Below are positions 16,756 through 45,481 of a stretch of DNA of 64,000 bases, piece by piece. Every line of letters begins with the position of its first letter. Within the stretch, counting starts at the first letter, position 1. The notes below the pieces were generated by a model. The model had not been told where the DNA came from and made no database searches. It worked only from the letters and a program-made list of their open reading frames with translations. The translations under genes and the position numbers were made by a program. The stretch lies in assembly GCF_000012485.1 (NCBI RefSeq), contig NC_007512.1:2258501-2322500 (forward strand), given 5' to 3'. The DNA comes from Pelodictyon luteolum DSM 273 (lineage in GTDB: Bacteria > Bacteroidota > Chlorobiia > Chlorobiales > Chlorobiaceae).

Positions 16756-16794
16756 AAAGCCCGTCATGCAGCATCCAACTGCATGACGGGCTTT
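16756..16794. terminator. Long hairpin between psrC and torD
   Basis: Perfect 16-bp stem (16756-16771 with 16779-16794) with a 7-base loop and a short TTTT on the right. It probably ends or reduces psrABC transcription before the chaperone gene. An ATG inside it at 16783 is in frame with the chaperone but is unlikely to be its start. Confidence 0.8.
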
Positions 16795-33276: not shown

Positions 33277-34215
33277 ATGACTGAACGCGTATCTTGCATA
33301 GACATCGGAACCAATACCGCCCTTCTCCTCATCGCCGACCTTGATGCGGAAAAGGGTACCGTGGAACCCGTATTCCACAAACAGACCATCATACGGCTCG
33401 GCGAGCATGTCGACGAAATGAAAATCATCGACCCCGAAGCACGCCAGCGGCTTATCAGCTGCATGCGCGACTACGCCGCGCTTTCCGGAGAACACAAATC
33501 CGACAGGATCATCGCCGTCGGAACCAGCGCACTGCGCGACGCGAAAAACCGCATGGAGGTCACCAGCGAAACCGTCCGCTCGACCGGCATCGTAATCCGC
33601 TGCATTACCGGCGAGGAGGAGGCCGGGCTGACCTTTTTCGGCGCAGTCGCCGGCATGACGGAAGTCCCCGACCCCTTCACGGTAATCGATATCGGGGGCG
33701 GAAGCACGGAACTCTCAATGGGATCGCTCACCTGTGTCTCCCGCAGTACCAGCATGGACATCGGCTCGGTGCGCCTCACGGAACGCTTTTTCTCCACCCT
33801 GCCGCCCTCGGAAGAAGAGTTCATGCGTGCGAAGGAAGAGGTGAACCGGGTGCTGACAGGCGGCGTCCTGCCGTTTTTCGCCTCGCGCGAACATGTCTTC
33901 GGCGTGGCCGGCACCCTTACTACCCTTGCCCAGCTTGCGCAGGGTATGCGGGAGTTCAATCCGGAAAAGGTCCACGGCTACCAGCTTCACTACGACGACG
34001 TGCACAGGATACTGGAACTGCTGAAAGCCTCCACACTCGAAGAGATTCTGGCCATGGGGGTTTCCGGGGGCCGTGCCGACGTCATCACGATGGGCGCACT
34101 CATCCTCCACCAGCTGATGCGCCTCCTCGGCCTCGGCGAAATCCGGGTCAGCGGTCAGGGTCTGCGCTACGGCATTGCCCTGCAGGAACTGCAGAACATT
34201 CGCGTGGCGGAGTAA
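33277..34215 (+). CDS. ppx: Ppx/GppA phosphatase family protein
   Basis: 312 residues; hydrolyses polyphosphate or pppGpp. The actin-like fold motifs are CIDIGTNTALLLIAD, GTSALRDAKNR, ITGEEEAGLTFFG and VIDIGGGSTELSMG. Only the two N-terminal actin-like domains are present, as in short Ppx forms, so there is no HD-like C-terminal domain. ATG 33277 starts MTERVSCIDIG. The last 68 bp overlap the convergent methyltransferase. Confidence 0.93.
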   Translation: MTERVSCIDIGTNTALLLIADLDAEKGTVEPVFHKQTIIRLGEHVDEMKIIDPEARQRLISCMRDYAALSGEHKSDRIIAVGTSALRDAKNRMEVTSETVRSTGIVIRCITGEEEAGLTFFGAVAGMTEVPDPFTVIDIGGGSTELSMGSLTCVSRSTSMDIGSVRLTERFFSTLPPSEEEFMRAKEEVNRVLTGGVLPFFASREHVFGVAGTLTTLAQLAQGMREFNPEKVHGYQLHYDDVHRILELLKASTLEEILAMGVSGGRADVITMGALILHQLMRLLGLGEIRVSGQGLRYGIALQELQNIRVAE

Positions 34216-35401
34216 CTGCATAAATTGCAAGCGGCCGCGCTTCGGCATCGCGCGTAAAGAACAGGAACCGCCTGTCGTCCTCCTTCAACCGGTATCGCGC
34301 CCGGATCGCATCGGCTGAAAGGGGGAAGTCCCTCCGCTGGATGGCCGCGCCATCAATACCATGGCGCTTCAGGAACTTCCCGAACCCCTTCCCGCTGTAC
34401 AGCGCAGCCTCGACCACCCGGAACACCCGCCCCGGGAACCCCTCCGGCCGGTGTGCGGCCGTCAGGTAGCCGACCGAACGATTGATGAACAGAAGCCCGA
34501 ACGTCTCGGCAACCACCCCTTCAAGCCCTGCTTTCAGGATTGCTGGATCAGGCTCCAGCAGCCACTCCATTACTGCATCCGACACCCTCCGCTCCCCCGT
34601 ATCCCGCCAGGTGAAGCGCCGGGCTTCCTCGCCCGCACCCCGGATGCAGACCGCATGGCGCTCGACTTCCAGTGGTGCTTGACGACGGAGGATAAGGAGG
34701 GTTGCGCGGCACTGGCCGTCGACCGAAAGCACCGTAACCGATGCAAGCGAGGGCAGCCGATCTTTGAGTCGTGAGGTTTCCAGGGCTGGTGAAGCCTTGA
34801 TGCAGACACCGGGTGCCTTCTGGAGCAGGAAGTCATGGAGGGAGACGACATCCGGAGACCCCTCTTCAAGGCGGATGTTGCGATGCGCACCTTCGCGGCG
34901 GTCCGGGTCGAGGTAAATCCAGTCAAAGTAGCCGTCCGGGAAGGATGCGAGCCGCTCCCGACCGTCTCCCCGGAGGCACTCCACGTTCCGGCGGCCGAGA
35001 ACCCCCATGTTGTGGCAGGCAATGGCGGAGAGGACAGGATCACGCTCAACGTGCACCACCTCTTCGAACGATCCTGCAAGGCTAAAGGCATCGATGCCGA
35101 GCCCGCCCGACAGGTCGATCGCCCGCCTGCCCTTGAGGAGTGAAGCCATATACGACGCGGCGCGCTCCTCCGACGCCTGCTCGAGGGCACGGGCAGTATA
35201 GAGGAGGGGACTTCGGGAGAGGAGGGGGAGTTTTGCGGCAGCTTTTTTCCGGCAGGCGATCTGCTCGGCCATCACCCGGACAGGCAGATCGGTGCGGCCG
35301 TGCAGGCGCATCGCAAACTCCGCGGGCTCTTCACCCTCATGCATGCCGACCATGGCGAGCACGCCGGGATCCTGCAGCCGGAACAGTTCGTCCTCAGTCA
35401 T
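34148..35401 (-). CDS. Class I SAM-dependent methyltransferase, THUMP-like type
   Basis: 417 residues. The central SAM fold has motif I (AIDLSGGLGIDAFSLA), the acidic ribose-binding loop (VVHVERDPVL) and DWIYLDPDRR, which is a DPPR-like active-site motif of RNA/DNA base methyltransferases. N-terminal (1-90) and C-terminal (about 270-417) domains flank it, the latter with FGKFLKRHGI and RRFLFFTRD. The substrate, likely an RNA, is not known. Its start overlaps the acyl-CoA ligase stop by 8 bp, so it is the last gene of the biotin operon. It overlaps ppx by 68 bp at the 3' end. Confidence 0.8.
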   Translation of the reverse strand: MTEDELFRLQDPGVLAMVGMHEGEEPAEFAMRLHGRTDLPVRVMAEQIACRKKAAAKLPLLSRSPLLYTARALEQASEERAASYMASLLKGRRAIDLSGGLGIDAFSLAGSFEEVVHVERDPVLSAIACHNMGVLGRRNVECLRGDGRERLASFPDGYFDWIYLDPDRREGAHRNIRLEEGSPDVVSLHDFLLQKAPGVCIKASPALETSRLKDRLPSLASVTVLSVDGQCRATLLILRRQAPLEVERHAVCIRGAGEEARRFTWRDTGERRVSDAVMEWLLEPDPAILKAGLEGVVAETFGLLFINRSVGYLTAAHRPEGFPGRVFRVVEAALYSGKGFGKFLKRHGIDGAAIQRRDFPLSADAIRARYRLKEDDRRFLFFTRDAEARPLAIYAVTPPRECSAVPAGQCRSADPDR

Positions 35402-37076
35402 CTCCCTTGAGCTTGCGGCGGAGGACCTTGCCCACCTGTGATTTCGGGAGCGACTCCCTGCACTCAAGGAAGCGCGGCACCTTGTATGCGGCAAGATCCT
35501 GCCGGCAATGCTCCCGCAGTTCCTCCAGTTCAAGCCTCATGCCTTCCCGGAGCACCACCCAGGCTTTCACCGCCTCTCCCTGGCGAGGATCATGAACCCC
35601 CGCCACCCCGACCTCCAGAACTGCTGGATGACGGGCTATGACCTCCTCGACCTCACGCGGCCATACCTGGAACCCCCCTGGCTTGATGACGTCCTTTTTC
35701 CGGTCGACAACAAACAAATAGCCATCTTCGTCCATATAGCCGAGGTCGCCGGTCAGAAGCCAGCCCTCCCTCAGAGCCTCCCCGCTCTCCCCGGGCCTCT
35801 GCCAGTACCCGCGCATCATCTGCGGAGCGCGCATCAGGACCTCGCCCACCATGTTCGTCCCGAGCGGCCCCTCGCCCGTCGCTTCGTCCACGATCTTCAC
35901 TTCCACATCGGGCAGCGGCACTCCGACCGAGCCCGGCTTGTAGACGCCGAGGATGGGGCTGAATGTCCCGGCAAGAGTCATTTCCGTGAGGCTGTAGGCA
36001 TCGATGATACGTCCGCCTGTCAACGACTCGAACCGCTCTTTCGTCTCCTGCAGCAGCGGCGCCGCTCCGGAGACGCAAAGCTTCAGCGAGCGGAGCAGGC
36101 CGGGATCCCTCTTGACCCTCGGATGGGCGATAAGCGCGGTGAAGAGGGTTGGGACGCCGGGAAGCACGGACGGGCGTACACGTCGGATGGTCGAGAGCAG
36201 GTCATCGAGGTCACGCGGGTTCGGCACCAGCGCCATAGGGTGGCGGCCGGAGAGCGCGGCCGTCATGATGCCCGCCTGCCCGTAAACATGGAAGAGCGGC
36301 ATGTTGAGCATGATGGGATCGCTGCCCTTCCGGAGAAGGACACTGAACCAGGTGACGATCTGCATGCCGGAAATCACAAGGGAGCGGTGGGTGCTGACGA
36401 CGCACTTCGGGGTGCCGGTCGTCCCGCCCGAAAAGAGGAACAGGGCTGGCTCATCCGACCGGGGAGGTACCGGAAGTGAACCGCCATGGCGCCCGGACCG
36501 AAGGATGGACTGGAACGGAGGATCCCCCCTCCGGGCATCGACCCGGTGACCCTGCGGCCGCTCATACAGGAGGGTGAAGAGCATACGCTTCAGCGGGGGG
36601 AGGTACTCGCCGATACCGGTAGGAATGAGGAGCCTGAGCGGCCCGTCGGTACGGCAATCCCTCAGGGCTGCAACTTTCGTGTAGAAAGGAGCAAGGACGA
36701 CGGCCGCCGAAGCTCCGCACTCCCGGAAGGCATGTTCGAGTTCGGTATCGCTGTAAAGAGGGTTCATCGGCACGGCAACGGCGCCCGTCTTCCACACACC
36801 GAACTCGCTGATGAGCATCTGCGGCGAGTTCGGCAGGAGGAGGGCAACCCGCTCTCCCTTACGGACACCGAGAGAGAGCAGACCCCGGGCAAAAGCGTCA
36901 CTTTCCCGCTCCAGCTCACCGTAGGTCATGCTCCTGCCCTTGAACCAGAGAGCGGGTGCATCGCCGGCCTCCGCGGCCGCACGGCGGAGCACCTCCACAA
37001 GACCCTCTTCGGGATAGGGCTGGAGGGTGTGCGGCACGCCGGGATCATAGCGGCGGGTCCAGTGCGCTGCATTCAT
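35394..37076 (-). CDS. Long-chain acyl-CoA synthetase (FadD-like)
   Basis: 560 residues, acyl-adenylate-forming enzyme. Motifs: [13 protein letters not shown] (phosphate loop), [49 protein letters not shown] region, and the catalytic lysine in [14 protein letters not shown]. No signal or carrier domain. It overlaps bioA by ATGA, so it is co-translated with biotin genes. It could activate pimelate or a pimeloyl precursor, or be an unrelated fatty acid ligase caught in the operon. BioC-BioG already gives a complete pimeloyl-ACP route, so a redundant role is possible. Confidence 0.88.
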
Positions 37077-38356
37077 GCCGTCACCTCCCGTACCGCCCGG
37101 CAGAGGACTGCCAGATCAGGGTCATCAATGATGAAGGGAGGCATGAGATAGACCAGACGGCCGAACGGGCGGACCCAGACACCGCGCCGGACGAATTCGC
37201 GCTGAATGGTGGCCATATCGACCGGGCGCTTGAGCTCCACCACGCCGATGGCTCCCAGTACGCGGACATCGGCCACCCCATCATGCTCCATGCACGCCTC
37301 AAGCCCGCTAAGGAGCCCTGCCCCGATCCGTTTGACGGACTGCTGCCACGGCTGTGAGCAGAGGAGTCGGATGCTTGCCAGACCGACGGCACATGCCAGA
37401 GGGTTGGCCATGAAGGTAGGTCCATGCATGAAGAGGCCCGGTTCGCCGGAAGAAATGGCCATGGCGACGGCATCGGTCGTCAACGTGGCGGCAAGCGTCA
37501 TGTACCCGCCGGTCAACGCCTTGCCCACACACATGATGTCAGGCTCGACCCCGGCATGCTCTAGGGCGAACATCTTCCCGGTCCGGCCGAAGCCCGTGGC
37601 GATTTCGTCAAAGATGAGCAGCACGTCATACTGCAGACAGAGATCCCGGAGCCGTCGGAGGCAATGAGGGGAGTAGAAGCGCATTCCTCCGGCGCCCTGC
37701 ACCACCGGCTCCAGAATTACGGCGGCAAGCTCCCCATGGTGCTCTTCAAGCTTGCTTCGGATGTCGGCCATGACGGAGTCCGTGCACCCGGCCTCGAACG
37801 GACAGTCGGGGAGTTCGGCAAACAGCTGCTCCTGCATTGCCCCGCGGAACAGGCCATGCATGCCGGTCACAGGATCACAGACCGACATGGCACCGAAGGT
37901 GTCGCCGTGGTAGCCCCCGCGAAGTGCAAGCATCCGTTTCTTTCCGGGCCGGCCGAGAGCCTCCCAGTACTGCACCGCCATTTTGAGGGCAACCTCAACT
38001 GCAACGGAACCTGAATCGCTGAAAAACACTTTCTGCAGCCCGGGCGGAGTAATCTCCACGAGCAGGCGGGCAAGCTCGACGGCCGGCTCGTGGGTCAGGC
38101 CTCCGAACATGACATGGCTCATCCGGTCGAGCTGGCGCCGCACCGCCTCGTCAAGCACGGGGTGGCGATAGCCGTGGATGGCCGCCCACCATGAAGACAT
38201 GCCGTCAATGAGCTGCGCTCCGTCTGCGAGCTCGATCCTCACACCCGAGGCACTGCGGACGGGATAGACCGGGAGCGGATCGGCCATGGAGGTATAGGGA
38301 TGCCAGAGATGTAGGCGGTCGAACGCGGTGTCGACGGGGCTGGAATCTTGCAGCAT
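37073..38356 (-). CDS. bioA: Adenosylmethionine-8-amino-7-oxononanoate aminotransferase
   Basis: 427 residues, PLP fold type I; makes 7,8-diaminopelargonate. Typical sequence: WHPYTSM near the start, [57 protein letters not shown] and the PLP lysine in [14 protein letters not shown]. The ATG at 38356 follows the bioD stop by 13 bp; the much longer frame upstream lies inside bioD. The SAM-binding type BioA is expected. Confidence 0.96.
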
Positions 38357-38369
38357 GCGGGTTGAAGGG

Positions 38370-39065
38370 TTAACGGGTTGGGAATCCGAGGCACCTGAGC
38401 TGATCGGGAGTGAAACGCTGGCTTCCCGGCTCTCCCCGAAGCTCAACGATGCCGGCTCCGGAACCGGACCGGAGGAGATGCCGGCGAAAGTAATCCAGGG
38501 TGTCGTCGCCAATCGAAGGGTCCGTTTCACCGTAGCGGTTATAGACCAATCCCTGCAAGGGAATGCCCCGGTTGCGGCAGGCTTCGAGGGAGAGGAGGGT
38601 ATGATTGATGCTTCCGAGCCAGGGACCCGATACAAGGATGAGCCCGAAGCCCTCCCCCGCGACGAAGTCCAGAAAAAGAAGCTCCCCGGAAAGCGGCACG
38701 AGCAGTCCCCCGACCCCCTCAAGCAGCACTATGGGGTAGCGCTCCCGGAGGGCGGCCGTTGCGCCGCGAATCGTCTCAGCGTCGACCCGTCCTCCTGCGA
38801 GGCGGGCTGCAAGGTGGGGAGAGGCCGGAAAGGGAAACGAACAGGGACATGTGAGGCCCTCATCGTCGGCTTCCTCCGGAGGAACCCCCATCAGTCGACG
38901 GTGTTCCAGAATATCGGCCGACATGCCGATGCAGCCGGTCTGCACGATCTTCTGGGTGATGGCATGCCGCCCCTCCGCCCTGAGCGCTCCGGCAAGCAGG
39001 CCGGTAACCACCGTTTTGCCGACACCGGTGCCGATGCCGGAGATGACCGTGACGGTTCCGCTCAT
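38370..39065 (-). CDS. bioD: Dethiobiotin synthetase
   Basis: 231 residues; ATP-dependent ring closure with CO2 to dethiobiotin. The P-loop is [18 protein letters not shown], and [14 protein letters not shown] is the second family motif. The catalytic lysine helix (QKIVQTGC) is present. The start overlaps bioC by ATGA. The C-terminal part diverges somewhat from E. coli BioD ([12 protein letters not shown]). Confidence 0.94.
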
Positions 39066-39853
39066 AGCGAGCCCTCCTGTCGCTTTCGAAGGCAGCAGTA
39101 GACGGGATTGTAGGTCAGCCGCACTCCTTCAGCCTGAGAAAACATGCTGCGGTAACGGTCCGAGAACTCCTTTTGACGCCCTTTAGTCCAGGGCTTACGG
39201 GCGAGAGCGTTGACGCCGGTGCGGCTGATGTGGCGGAGCACCGCTTCAGGGGAACTGAAGGTCAGGGTGATTTCAGCTTCACGGAGTTCAAGCACCTCAA
39301 AATACCTTTCGCAGAGTTCGCCAGTCTCGGCAATGCTACGGTACGTGAGGGCCGTGCCGAGAATGGCGGCGATTTCCTGCATATTGGAACTGCTGAACGA
39401 GGTGAACAGAAAGAGCCCGCCCGGAGCCATCGAGTCGGCGATCCTCCCGAGAAAAGTCTCAAGGTCGTCGAGCCACTGCAGGGTGGCGTTGGAGACCACG
39501 AGGTCTCTTCGTTCCGGCAGGAAGGGGAGGGATTCGACATCTCCACCGAGAAAATTGAACACCACCTCCGGATGGCGGTCCATGATCCCCTGCAGGCACT
39601 CCCGGCTCTCCTCCACCAGGTCATTGGCCGTGTATCGTTCGATGCTGAAGGCCTCAAGCATGAGCTCCGTCAGCATGCCCGAACCCGAGCCTACTTCCAG
39701 CACCCGCTCAAAATGGATCCCGGATGCATGGCGGGCCGCCATTGATACAAGCTCCTGGGCCATTGCCCGCTGCACCGCTGCCTCTCCGGCATAGGAACCG
39801 AGGGTACGGCGAAACCGCTCCCGGACGAGAGCCTTGTCGGTCAAGCCTGCCAT
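39062..39853 (-). CDS. bioC: Malonyl-ACP O-methyltransferase
   Basis: 263 residues; methylates malonyl-ACP to prime pimelate synthesis. N-terminal RERFRRTLGSYAGEAAVQRAMA, SAM motif I VLEVGSGSGMLTELML, and SNATLQWLDDLETFL match BioC. ATG 39853 is inside the last codons of bioG (13-bp overlap). The longer frame upstream is rejected because it lies inside bioG in another frame. Confidence 0.93.
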   Translation of the reverse strand: MAGLTDKALVRERFRRTLGSYAGEAAVQRAMAQELVSMAARHASGIHFERVLEVGSGSGMLTELMLEAFSIERYTANDLVEESRECLQGIMDRHPEVVFNFLGGDVESLPFLPERRDLVVSNATLQWLDDLETFLGRIADSMAPGGLFLFTSFSSSNMQEIAAILGTALTYRSIAETGELCERYFEVLELREAEITLTFSSPEAVLRHISRTGVNALARKPWTKGRQKEFSDRYRSMFSQAEGVRLTYNPVYCCLRKRQEGSL

Positions 39854-40524
39854 GCCGTAACCTCCCGGATGGTTCTGCAGTGGAAAAAAGGATAGTGCGG
39901 CATTGCGGCAATCAGGGTTCGGGGCGTGGCGTCCCAGGCCGCATCCTGGCGTGCGGCAGGGAAAATGGCGTCGCGCCCGCCGATGAAAGCGTGGTCGTAC
40001 TCCCATCCCGGTTGGAGAACCGGACCGGAGAAGAGGCACTGGAGACTCGAGAGTTCATTTTTCTGATCTTCGGTCGTGCGGGTGGAGGGGCACTCGCTAA
40101 AGCGGGAGAGCACTTCCGTCCCGCCGCACATCCGACGCTCAAACCGGCGTCGGCCATCTTCTCCGTACCCGTCATGCGTGGCCTGGAAAATCTCAGGATC
40201 TATGCCCCGGTGCCGGTCAACAGGAAAGAGGGTCCCGTTCAGGGCGACGGCCGCGGCAATAGGGGGGAGAGGAACCGCACGGGCGGCCCAGACACCGAAG
40301 GACCAGGCTATGAGGGTAATGCGCCGGTACAGGGAGAGTTCCGGTTGCAGGTCGATGTCAGGAGTGAGTGCCGTGTAGTCGTAGAAGGCAAGCATGTCGC
40401 CCCCGAACCCATCGTCAAGGGAGTCCCTGAAGAGGCGCCCGGCATGGCATGCGTCCGTTCCCCAGCCGCTGAAGAAGAGCACCAGCTCCTCTCCGCCATC
40501 CTGTTTGAACCACTGGTGTTTCAT
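39841..40524 (-). CDS. bioG: Pimeloyl-ACP methyl ester esterase BioG (DUF452)
   Basis: 227 residues, alpha/beta hydrolase of the DUF452/BioG family, which can replace BioH. The lid-less fold begins LVLFFSGWGTDA; the nucleophile is the serine in LIAWSFGVW; FIGGRDAIFPAA and PHYPFFHC carry the acid and histidine. It removes the methyl group added by BioC. Overlaps bioF by ATGA (start 40524). Confidence 0.92.
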   Translation of the reverse strand: MKHQWFKQDGGEELVLFFSGWGTDACHAGRLFRDSLDDGFGGDMLAFYDYTALTPDIDLQPELSLYRRITLIAWSFGVWAARAVPLPPIAAAVALNGTLFPVDRHRGIDPEIFQATHDGYGEDGRRRFERRMCGGTEVLSRFSECPSTRTTEDQKNELSSLQCLFSGPVLQPGWEYDHAFIGGRDAIFPAARQDAAWDATPRTLIAAMPHYPFFHCRTIREVTAWQA

Positions 40525-41687
40525 CGCCGCAGCCCTCCAAGGCAACCGGCCACGCCGGCAATGTCATCCCACCCGAGAATGGAGCGGAGGGAGATGCGGA
40601 CGCGGGCGCTGTTTTCAGGCACGCTGGGCGGGCGGACCGCCATGGCCAGAAACCCCGCATCCCGAAGAGCCGCTGCCATTTTGAGGGCACGGGAGTCCGC
40701 GCCGGCCGTAACCGGCACGATATGGCTCTCCCCCGGCACCTCGAACCCCAGTGCCGAAATCTCGCTACGAAGCCTGGAGGCAAGAGCCAGAAGTGCACGT
40801 CGCTCAACCTGCATCCCGACCTGGCGGCGGAGCGTCAGGAGACTCCAGCCGAGGGTCACGGGAGGGAGGGCTGTCGTGAAAATGAAGGTGCGCATTGTGT
40901 TGACGAGGTACTGGCGGACAACCCGGTCCATGACTGCATACGCTCCGGCGGAACCCAACGCCTTGCCGAAGGTGCCGATGATGATGTCGACTTCGCCGGT
41001 AACCCCCTCGTTTTCCGTAAGCCCGAGCCCCCGCTGACCAAACACCCCGGTGCCATGAGCCTCGTCGATGATGAGCACGGCGTCGTGGCGCTTTTTCAGC
41101 TCCACGAGACGGCGAAGATCGGCAAGGTCACCGTCCATACTGAACACCGATTCAGAAATGATGAAGATCTGGCGGTACCGGCCGCGCGCCGCTTCAAGCA
41201 GCTCCTCGAGATGAAGATAGTCACCGTGAGGGTACCGCTCCCACCGTGCATCGGCGATCTTCATGCCGTCGATGATGCTGGCGTGGTTGAGCCGGTCGGA
41301 GAGCACAAGGTCGTGGCGCCCGGCAAGGGCAGGAAGGATGCCGGTATTGGCGTGGTAGCCGCTGTTGAACACCATGGCCGCCTCACGCCCGTAGAGGCCT
41401 GCAAGTTCCTGCTCAAGTTCATCGTAGAGCGGGTGACTGCCTGTCAGAAGACGGGAGGACGAGCTTCCGAGGGGCGGCAGTCCACTCCGGCAACTCTCGA
41501 AATAAACCCTGCGCAGCTCCTGGTCGTCACCGAGTCCGAGATAGTCGTTGGAGGAGAGGTTCATGAGGCGTCTGCCGCCGATTGAAATGAAGCGCCCATC
41601 TCGGGAGGTTACCTCTGGCACTGCACGCAACCGGTCCCGTTCCTTCAGCTGTCCGAGCTCTGCGGTTATGCGTTCATGAAACTGCAT
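40521..41687 (-). CDS. bioF: 8-amino-7-oxononanoate synthase
   Basis: 388 residues; PLP-dependent condensation of pimeloyl thioester with alanine. Visible motifs: LSSNDYLGLGDD, GSSSSRLLTGSHPLYDELE, FNSGYHANTG, IIDEAHGTGVFG and the PLP lysine in IGTFGKALGSAGAY. Starts 8 bp after bioB. Confidence 0.96.
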   Translation of the reverse strand: MQFHERITAELGQLKERDRLRAVPEVTSRDGRFISIGGRRLMNLSSNDYLGLGDDQELRRVYFESCRSGLPPLGSSSSRLLTGSHPLYDELEQELAGLYGREAAMVFNSGYHANTGILPALAGRHDLVLSDRLNHASIIDGMKIADARWERYPHGDYLHLEELLEAARGRYRQIFIISESVFSMDGDLADLRRLVELKKRHDAVLIIDEAHGTGVFGQRGLGLTENEGVTGEVDIIIGTFGKALGSAGAYAVMDRVVRQYLVNTMRTFIFTTALPPVTLGWSLLTLRRQVGMQVERRALLALASRLRSEISALGFEVPGESHIVPVTAGADSRALKMAAALRDAGFLAMAVRPPSVPENSARVRISLRSILGWDDIAGVAGCLGGLRR

Positions 41688-41695
41688 CGGCTCCC

Positions 41696-42718
41696 TCAGG
41701 AAAAGCTTGCAAGCTGCGCTCTGAACCGGGTGTCGTCGGCGACCTCCCGTCCCCTGGTGGTCAGGTACCCGCCGGTCAGCAGCCCGTCAGCGCCCGAGAG
41801 CATCAGCAGGCCCTGGAAATCCTTCATGACGGTCTCCCGACCGGCGGCGAACTTTATGGTTTTACGGGGGTGCACCAGACGCATGATGGCGAATGTCTTC
41901 ACAATCTCGTCGAGCGGAAGGGACGGAGCCCCTTCAAGCGGGGTCCCCTTGATCGGGACGAGCACGTTGATGGGGATGACCGATACATCGAGCTCCCGGA
42001 GGGCGAACATCATCTCCACCCGGTCCTCCATGTGTTCACCAACGCCAATGATACCGCCGCAGCAGACCGATACGCCGTTCCGGCGGAGGAGCCGGACCGT
42101 CTCCATACGCTCTTCGACGGCATGAGTATCGGCAATGAGCTCGCCGTACCGGCCGGGGGTCACCTGGATATTGATGTTGTAGTGCGCGATGCCGCGCCCG
42201 GCAAGTGCTTTTGCGGTATCGGGACCGAGCACGCCGAGTGATGCGCAGACCTGGAGCGAAGGGAGTTCGCTGTGCAGGCGGTCGATCATGGAAAGGATCC
42301 GCTGGAACTCATCACTCATCTTCAGGTAGCCGTAACCGCTCGTTACGATGCCGAAATGCGACACCCCCTGCTCTACGCAGCCGCGCGCCTCGAAAAGCAC
42401 GGCATCTTCGTCGACGAGCGGGTAAACCTCGATGTCTGAATGGTTGTGGCGGGATTGGGCGCAGAACCGGCAGTTTTCGCCACATACTCCCGACTTCGCG
42501 TTCATGATTGAACAGGCATGCACACCGCCCTTCCCCCAGCGGTTCCGAACCTTGTTGGCAAGGGAGGCGATGTCAAGAGCGTGCTCTCCGGGAAGCGCGG
42601 CAAGCATGAGGGCCGCTTCACGGCCGATCGGCTCTCCGGTCTCAAGCACGCTGTATGCCGCACTGATTTCGGGATGAAGGGGCGGAACGCCCATAGTGGA
42701 GGACTGCATGTGTTCCAT
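41696..42718 (-). CDS. bioB: Biotin synthase
   Basis: 340 residues, radical SAM sulfur-insertion enzyme. The cluster motif is [16 protein letters not shown]; the second-cluster residues appear in CASLG and [12 protein letters not shown], and the arginine ligand in AGRETVMKD. The N-terminus carries an extra 60-residue helical region usual for the family. It follows birA by 3 bp, so birA and bioB are certainly in one transcript. Confidence 0.96.
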
Positions 42719-42721
42719 AAG

Positions 42722-43719: not shown

Positions 43720-43763
43720 GCAAAGTTGTCAACTTGAATGTACAACCGGGTTGACAACTTTGC
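43720..43763 (-). promoter_or_regulatory. BirA operator overlapping the birA promoter
   Basis: Two perfect 14-base inverted arms (GCAAAGTTGTCAAC and GTTGACAACTTTGC) separated by 16 bases. The core TTGTCAAC-N16-GTTGACAA matches the known BirA consensus of TTGTNAAC and GTTNACAA with a 14-16 base spacer. On the minus strand a -35 TTGCAA (43760-43765), 17-base spacer and -10 TACATT (43737-43742) lie within it, so bound BirA would block transcription. It starts 17 bases before the birA ATG. Confidence 0.92.
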
Positions 43764-43777
43764 AATAAGGATACGAT

Positions 43778-45481
43778 CTAACGGGCGGAGGCCATGCGTG
43801 ATGCCTCGTATTGGGTCCGGTAGGCCTGGAGGCCCTGGAAAATCCCGTAGGCAATCTTGGTCTGCTCCTGGCGGTCACGAAGAATAACCTCTTCACGGGG
43901 ATTGGAGATGTAGCCGACCTCTACAAGGGCGCTCGGCATGGAAGGAGTCCAAAGCACCATGAACCCTGCCTGGCGGACTGCCCGGCCATTCGTGCTCGTC
44001 GAACGGTCGAGCGGCTTTACGAGCTCCCGGGCGAGAGTTGTGGAGTGGCGGATGAAGGAGTTCTGGGCCATGGAGCTCATGATGAGATGCTCGTCACTGA
44101 AGTTCCGGTACTGCTCGCGGTAGTCCGATTCCTGACTTATGACACCGTTTTCAAGCATGGCGACCTTCAGTGCGGCGGCCGTCTTGTGCGGGCCGAGAAT
44201 GTATACCTCCGGCCCCCGTATCGAACGGTTTTCATTGGCATTGCAGTGAACGCTGAGGAACAGCTTGCCCTCAGTGCGGTTGGCGATCCGCCCCCGCTCG
44301 TGGAGCGGGATGAAGATGTCGTCTTTACGGGTATAAACGACCTCCACATCGGGCCACTTCCGTGCAATGATGCTGCCGAGGTCCCTGACGATGTTGAGTG
44401 CGACATCCTTTTCACGGGTCCCTTTCAAGCCTACCGCCCCGGGATCCTGCCCACCGTGGCCGGCATCCAGTACGATGGTATTGAGTTTCCATTTTTCAAC
44501 ATCGCGGCTGATCACACTTGCGATCCGCTGTAATTTTTCCCTGCTGCGGATGGCCTCCACGTCTGCATCACTGCGAACATAGAGGAGGTAGCGGTTGTTG
44601 CGCTGGTCGCGCTGGTAATCAAGCGAGCGCACGACACCGGAGCGGCCGTCGAAGCTCACACTGAAACGCAGTGCGCCGGCAGGAGTGCGATCGGCCGTGA
44701 CGGAACGCACAAGGCCCGAGGGGAACATCTTTTTAAGGATGGCCGGATCGCCGGAGGCACCGGAAAGAACGAATGATGCCCTGCCTGAAGCATCGGGCTG
44801 CGAAAGCGCAGCCGAAGCCTGTGCTCCGGAGGCGGAAAACGAGATGATCGCACCGTTGGCCCGTTCTTCAACATCAACGCCGGTTATCCTCGTCGGGCCA
44901 AAAGCCGGAGGTGGAGGAGGGGGCGTGGGGGAGAGTGTACCGATGGAAGCTTCCGATCGTCCGAGAGGACGGGGCTGCAGCCAGACCTTGAACATCTTTT
45001 CGGAAGCGCTGTAGATGACATCGCGGTCAAGCCAGATGGAAAAAATCCTGGCGGACTGGCTTATGGGAAGAAAGAGGCGCTGGTCCAGCAGCTGCGGAGC
45101 AGCGGAAAGCTGCACAATCCTTGCCGGATCGGCAGCGCGGCGGTAAACGATGCGGGCAAAACTGTTGCCGGCCGTGAGGGTGCAGACACTGCCGTGTGAA
45201 GAGATGGCCTCTTCGGCCGAGAGCATCCCGGCCGAAGTCCGGTAGGTGAGCCGCATGGCCCGCGTCATGGACTGAAGGTCGACAAGGATCCTGCCGTCTG
45301 CACCTTTGCGGGTAAGCACCTTTATGGTGTATCCCTCACCATTGCCCTGCATGATGCGGAGTGGAACCGAAGAAACGGTCCACGGAGGGGCGGTGGCGGC
45401 AGAGAGCTGCTTCGGCAGGCATGCGGCAATAATCAGGGCAAACAGGAGATGCAGGACCGCAGGACGTGAAAAGGGCATCAT
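43778..45481 (-). CDS. N-acetylmuramoyl-L-alanine amidase with AMIN region
   Basis: 567 residues, exported (signal peptide about 1-29). A beta-rich N-terminal region (30-190) precedes a polyproline linker (PTPPPPPPAFGP), an AMIN-like domain (about 200-315) and Amidase_3 (about 335-555). Zinc and catalytic residues: H in VLDAGHGGQDPGAVG, E in GTREKDVAL, H in LFLSVHCNAN and E in ALVEVGYISN. It cleaves the lactyl-Ala amide of peptidoglycan during cell separation (AmiC-like). It is upstream of birA across the operator and divergent from topA. Confidence 0.9.
   Translation of the reverse strand: MMPFSRPAVLHLLFALIIAACLPKQLSAATAPPWTVSSVPLRIMQGNGEGYTIKVLTRKGADGRILVDLQSMTRAMRLTYRTSAGMLSAEEAISSHGSVCTLTAGNSFARIVYRRAADPARIVQLSAAPQLLDQRLFLPISQSARIFSIWLDRDVIYSASEKMFKVWLQPRPLGRSEASIGTLSPTPPPPPPAFGPTRITGVDVEERANGAIISFSASGAQASAALSQPDASGRASFVLSGASGDPAILKKMFPSGLVRSVTADRTPAGALRFSVSFDGRSGVVRSLDYQRDQRNNRYLLYVRSDADVEAIRSREKLQRIASVISRDVEKWKLNTIVLDAGHGGQDPGAVGLKGTREKDVALNIVRDLGSIIARKWPDVEVVYTRKDDIFIPLHERGRIANRTEGKLFLSVHCNANENRSIRGPEVYILGPHKTAAALKVAMLENGVISQESDYREQYRNFSDEHLIMSSMAQNSFIRHSTTLARELVKPLDRSTSTNGRAVRQAGFMVLWTPSMPSALVEVGYISNPREEVILRDRQEQTKIAYGIFQGLQAYRTQYEASRMASAR

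Follow-up and report, generated by a model that had tools for sequence, protein, structure and literature searches.

Does the inverted repeat in front of birA in Pelodictyon luteolum DSM 273 serve as a BirA operator, and would this one site place the biotin sensor under the same control as the biotin biosynthetic genes? The earlier note had described a flawless 14-base palindrome just before birA and over its putative promoter. A repeat finder applied to the window, by which we mean the whole stretch of 64,000 nucleotides that was analyzed, returned arms at 43720-43733 and 43750-43763 (GCAAAGTTGTCAAC and GTTGACAACTTTGC) that are complementary at 14 of 14 positions across a 16-nt spacer, directly before the minus-strand birA gene. 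The intergenic stretch from the amidase stop (43778) to the birA ATG (43702) reads TTGCAAAGTTGTCAACCCGGTTGTACATTCAAGTTGACAACTTTGCC on the minus strand. Within it, the sense-strand operator (43757-43726) is TTGTCAACC-CGGTTGTACATTCA-AGTTGACAA, an inverted repeat of the TTGTNAACC-N14/15(16)-GGTTNACAA type with N14 spacing. The published BirA consensus is TTGTAAACC-[N14/15]-GGTTTACAA (PMC545781), and the palindrome, although flawless in its pairing, departs by one mismatch from the 9-bp form of the consensus, which is usually TTGTNAACC-N14-GGTTNACAA. The left half matches the TTGTNAACC half-site perfectly, and the right half has an A instead of a G at the inner base. The pattern TTGTNAAC-N14..18-GTTNACAA occurs once in the 2,364,842-bp genome, with 0 matches for the reversed-pattern control. 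No site was found at one mismatch to the N16 pattern in the whole genome, and the 29 genome sites at up to three mismatches are at background level (32 in the control). The operator site is real and lies far beyond chance.

A protein search detected birA in 60 of 61 Chlorobiaceae genomes, and inspection of the upstream DNA reveals the site in all 59 in which this region is readable, so that the palindrome that the earlier note proposed to look for in other Chlorobi is kept at a biotin-gene promoter throughout these relatives. Mismatches are few (none in 30 sites, one in 26 and two in 3), and the 16-nt spacer between the 8-bp cores gave the best site in each of the 59. The two closest relatives, G017 and G023, have 1 and 2 mismatches, respectively, in the left half-site, and in the 60th genome (G036) the site follows the amidase gene at the contig end. 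Across the 56 distinct sites, the half-site columns are near invariant, and the spacer is nearly random except for TANATTC. The outer pair positions of the arms are at chance level in the relatives (pair table). Of the 14-base arms first read as the operator, it is thus the inner half-sites that are conserved, but not the outer 5 bp.

An inverted repeat of this kind might also work as RNA, either at the 3' end of the amidase mRNA or in the leader of birA, where it would form a terminator or a stabilizing hairpin. It lies 20 nt past the amidase stop, and in this genome the sense RNA forms a 14-bp stem far better than shuffled sequences do (z of -5.6). However, no U-tract follows the repeat, and at most positions of the 56 distinct sites the two arms pair only as well as independent columns would predict; pair 4 is broken in 25 of them, whereas the BirA consensus, which has N at this position, is kept. 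The -10 hexamer described below occupies the loop in 50 of 59 genomes, and several other Chlorobiaceae have separate, strong terminator-like hairpins with U-tails downstream of the amidase gene, ahead of the operator. The repeat has no Rfam family, and no riboswitch or other Rfam element was found at gathering scores between 33.0 and 46.5 kb. We discarded the hairpin or terminator reading on the absent covariation and the absent U-tract. As a conserved function, an RNA element is not supported by the alignments, and we consider it very improbable. Arms that lack the covariation of an RNA stem point instead to a site that acts as DNA.

The conserved positions outside the half-sites suggest a promoter. 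Columns of the 56 distinct sites show TA(A/C)ATTC inside the spacer and TTG(CAA) 8 nt outside the left core, and the distance of 17 nt from TTG(CAA) to TANATT is that of a sigma-70 promoter; both hexamers are present in 50 of 59 genomes. The palindrome does therefore overlie a putative promoter, the conserved hexamers of which are interleaved with the operator. By E. coli standards, this predicted promoter is weak (8 of 12), and it was missed by the promoter scan. In a seven-genome Chlorobium subclade (G025, G035, G037, G041, G045, G049, and G055; e.g. loci L100 and L110), the hexamers are lost and the operator is kept, and five of the seven have the right half-site TTGACA ~18 nt before a TA(A/C)TCT element near the birA ATG. 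That the operator persists even where the promoter seems to have shifted speaks for its selection as a protein-binding site.

The protein most likely to bind there is encoded next to it. The winged-helix domain that had been attributed to BirA was recovered as Pfam HTH_11 (6e-13, residues 6-58), as found in group II biotin protein ligases, and the ligase core contains both GRGRLGRSW (the GRGRxGR biotin-binding loop) and KWPND in alignment with E. coli BirA. The protein matches the E. coli BirA structures 1bia and 4wf2 over the HTH and ligase regions. A different factor of similar specificity could occupy the site in place of BirA, but the sequence and spacing agree with the published BirA consensus (PMC545781), each of the sites is adjacent to a group II birA, and families of the order in which BirA is HTH-less lack the exact site; we regard such a factor as extremely improbable.

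Coordinates and features of the locus are collected in Table 1. From birA to the methyltransferase gene, all of the genes are on the minus strand and are separated by no more than 13 bp or overlap (some starts are inferred), and a gap of only 3 bp (42719-42721) lies between birA and bioB, in agreement with the close packing reported earlier. The order birA-bioB-bioF-bioG-bioC-bioD-bioA is constant in Chlorobiaceae wherever the contig is long enough, and in the same relatives the amidase gene lies upstream of birA on the same strand. An acyl-CoA ligase gene follows bioA in 24 of the 27 genomes with enough sequence and is a probable distal member of the operon, which probably extends through both this gene and the methyltransferase gene, the latter being possibly the last.

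Table 1. Features of the birA-bio locus, in window coordinates
Feature	Position	Strand	Basis or remark
Perfect 14-nt inverted repeat	43720..43763		Operator plus outer 5-6 nt, symmetric here and not conserved as operator
BirA-type operator (predicted), TTGTCAACC-N14-AGTTGACAA	43726..43757	-	Genome uniqueness, conserved N16 spacing, column conservation
Predicted -35 hexamer TTGCAA	43760..43765	-	Overlaps outer left arm; TTG kept in 54/59 genomes
Predicted -10 hexamer TACATT	43737..43742	-	Operator centre; TANATT kept in 50/59 genomes
N-acetylmuramoyl-L-alanine amidase, upstream	43778..45481	-	Amidase_3; ends 20 nt before operator core
birA, group II biotin protein ligase/repressor, 326 aa	42722..43702	-	Pfam HTH_11, BPL_LplA_LipB, BPL_C
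bioB, biotin synthase	41696..42718	-	Radical_SAM and BATS; TIGR00433 above cut-off
bioF	40521..41687	-	Aminotran_1_2; gene order kept in relatives
bioG, pimeloyl-ACP methyl esterase	39841..40524	-	Pfam BioG 4e-32; start ATG inferred
bioC, methyltransferase	39062..39853	-	Methyltransf_11, position after bioG; start inferred
bioD	38370..39065	-	AAA_26
bioA	37073..38356	-	Aminotran_3 1e-120; start inferred
AMP-binding acyl-CoA ligase	35394..37076	-	AMP-binding 1e-85; 4-bp overlap with bioA
THUMP-like-domain methyltransferase	34148..35401	-	Pfam Thump_like; start overlaps ligase end, start inferred

We propose, with a probability of about 0.87, that a canonical BirA operator occludes the sole recognizable promoter of an autoregulated birA-bio operon. 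With ample biotin and little apo-carboxyl-carrier protein, BirA-biotinoyl-5'-AMP would dimerize and bind the half-sites at 43757-43749 and 43734-43726. The predicted -10 hexamer is between these half-sites, and the expected start (~43730, ~7 nt on) would fall inside the right one, so that RNA polymerase would be excluded from the only recognizable promoter of birA-bioBFGCDA-(acyl-CoA ligase)-(methyltransferase). As the leading gene, birA would be repressed too, and less new BirA would be made, so that the feedback would be negative on the sensor/ligase and the pathway alike. We infer BirA binding, its ligand dependence, repression, the start point, and co-transcription to ~34.1 kb. The birA gene is downstream of, and on the same strand as, a predicted promoter that a BirA-type site overlaps. 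Most likely, the sensor would silence its own gene along with the biotin genes. One point against the proposal is that an essential ligase repressed by its own product needs some basal expression. The locus is a compact, family-wide case of a biotin sensor, also an essential enzyme, under its own predicted repression, and it raises the testable question of how ligase supply holds up when biotin is ample.

Whether one site governs the ligase and every biotin gene, as the earlier note had claimed, depends on the other promoters that might feed the operon. A check for independent promoters before bioB gave neither a promoter-like nor a second operator-like sequence there in the window. The best candidates for a second operator before bioB have 3-8 mismatches, and in the window no sigma-70-like promoter was found, the 3-bp birA-bioB gap giving at best a 5 of 12 hexamer match. 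The silence of the promoter scan before bioB is weak evidence since the scan missed the predicted promoter too. Upstream, in the stretch that follows the amidase gene and precedes the operator, this genome has no terminator, and some read-through is therefore possible. The claim of control from one site is supported, with possible read-through from the amidase gene as a qualification. If the operator acts but read-through or internal promoters add to it, one-site control would be partial. The missing terminator favors this, as does a Chlorobium subclade (G047, G052, G053, G057, G059, and G060; e.g. L111 and L114), in which a birA-bioB gap of 48-93 nt contains an A/T-rich tract (TTTATA...) that is conserved and might act as a second promoter. 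Against this, the short gap in the window has no promoter-like hexamers, and the strong terminator-like hairpins of the relatives argue that read-through is not a conserved feature. We judge partial control to be rather unlikely and retain occlusion of a sole promoter as the preferred reading.

How this arrangement relates to known BirA systems was assessed by comparison with four groups. As in Chlorobiaceae, a group II BirA with an HTH domain is paired in E. coli with a TTGTNAACC...GGTTNACAA operator (bioO) over the bio promoter. In contrast to E. coli, the 9-bp half-sites of Chlorobiaceae are separated by a spacer of 14 and not 16, the operon is one-directional with birA as the first gene of the operon that it should control, and bioG replaces bioH. 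The design had been set apart on the strength of this contrast, but it is not unusual. Among Proteobacteria, BirA is described as "autoregulated only in Desulfovibrionales" (PMC5343134), where the BirA site is between divergent birA and bio operons (PMC545781) and is likewise expected to control birA; in these organisms, both transcription units diverge from one site, whereas in Chlorobiaceae birA heads the operon. Clostridia (e.g. L189, L193, L204, and L236) also have a BirA-type site directly before birA, although no bio genes were recognized downstream of it, and their right half-site TTGACA can serve as a -35 element, which five genomes of the seven-genome Chlorobium subclade resemble. In Fermentibacterota (Ca. 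Sabulitectum L181 and Ca. Aegiribacteria L206), a BirA-type site lies 53-85 nt before birA, and bioB and bioF follow birA in the same orientation, but the proteins are distant (33% identity for BioB), and bioG, bioC, bioD, and bioA were not seen next in the sequence examined. The Chlorobiaceae operon adds a very well conserved member to a known kind of regulation and does not define a new one. No Chlorobi-specific report was found in the literature searched, and an earlier prediction is possible in Rodionov et al. 2002.

Set against their sister families in the order, the Chlorobiaceae present a natural example in which a whole vitamin pathway with its regulation was gained or lost. Among ten genomes sampled from the order's other families, 8 have a detectable BirA; six of the eight proteins could be translated in full and lack the HTH region, and in the remaining ones the matches start beyond this region or are partial. 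None of the ten has the exact N14/15 site or a BioB above the curated cut-off, and 8 have BioY. These families (L264-L270; L280-L287), with an HTH-less BirA, BioY, and no BioB over the cut-off, are probable biotin scavengers. In a BirA tree that is small and biased, its rows having been fetched by site, the Chlorobiaceae form one group (support of 99) apart from the sister proteins of the order, and Fermentibacterota are nearest to them (support of 89). This position, together with the same site-birA-bioB-bioF loci in Fermentibacterota, suggests that the Chlorobiaceae gained the birA-bio module as a unit; alternatively, the HTH domain and the pathway could have been lost in the sister families. 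A fuller scenario, which we offer tentatively and which may well be wrong, is that operator, repressor/ligase, and pathway were gained as a self-regulating unit, perhaps from a lineage near Fermentibacterota, so that an organism that had scavenged biotin through BioY and had a ligase without the HTH became a producer under its own control.

Candidates for BirA targets outside the operon were rejected. A larger BirA regulon in this genome is not indicated, as no other site rises above background. In the relatives, the exact pattern matches in G001, G019, G052, and G058 are isolated and absent from other genomes. BioY as a second target was dismissed because a search of five Chlorobiaceae did not recover it, and hence no biotin gene is recognized here outside the operon. 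The 64-kb window holds one other perfect inverted repeat of comparable size, at 16756-16794 (at least 14 nt; AAAGCCCGTCATGC...). A pattern match not adjoining birA, TTGTCAACAA..TTGTTGACAA, occurs in both G012 (L043, 1501-1530) and G022 (C1, 236006-236035), where it encloses a DnaA-box-like TGTGGATAA.
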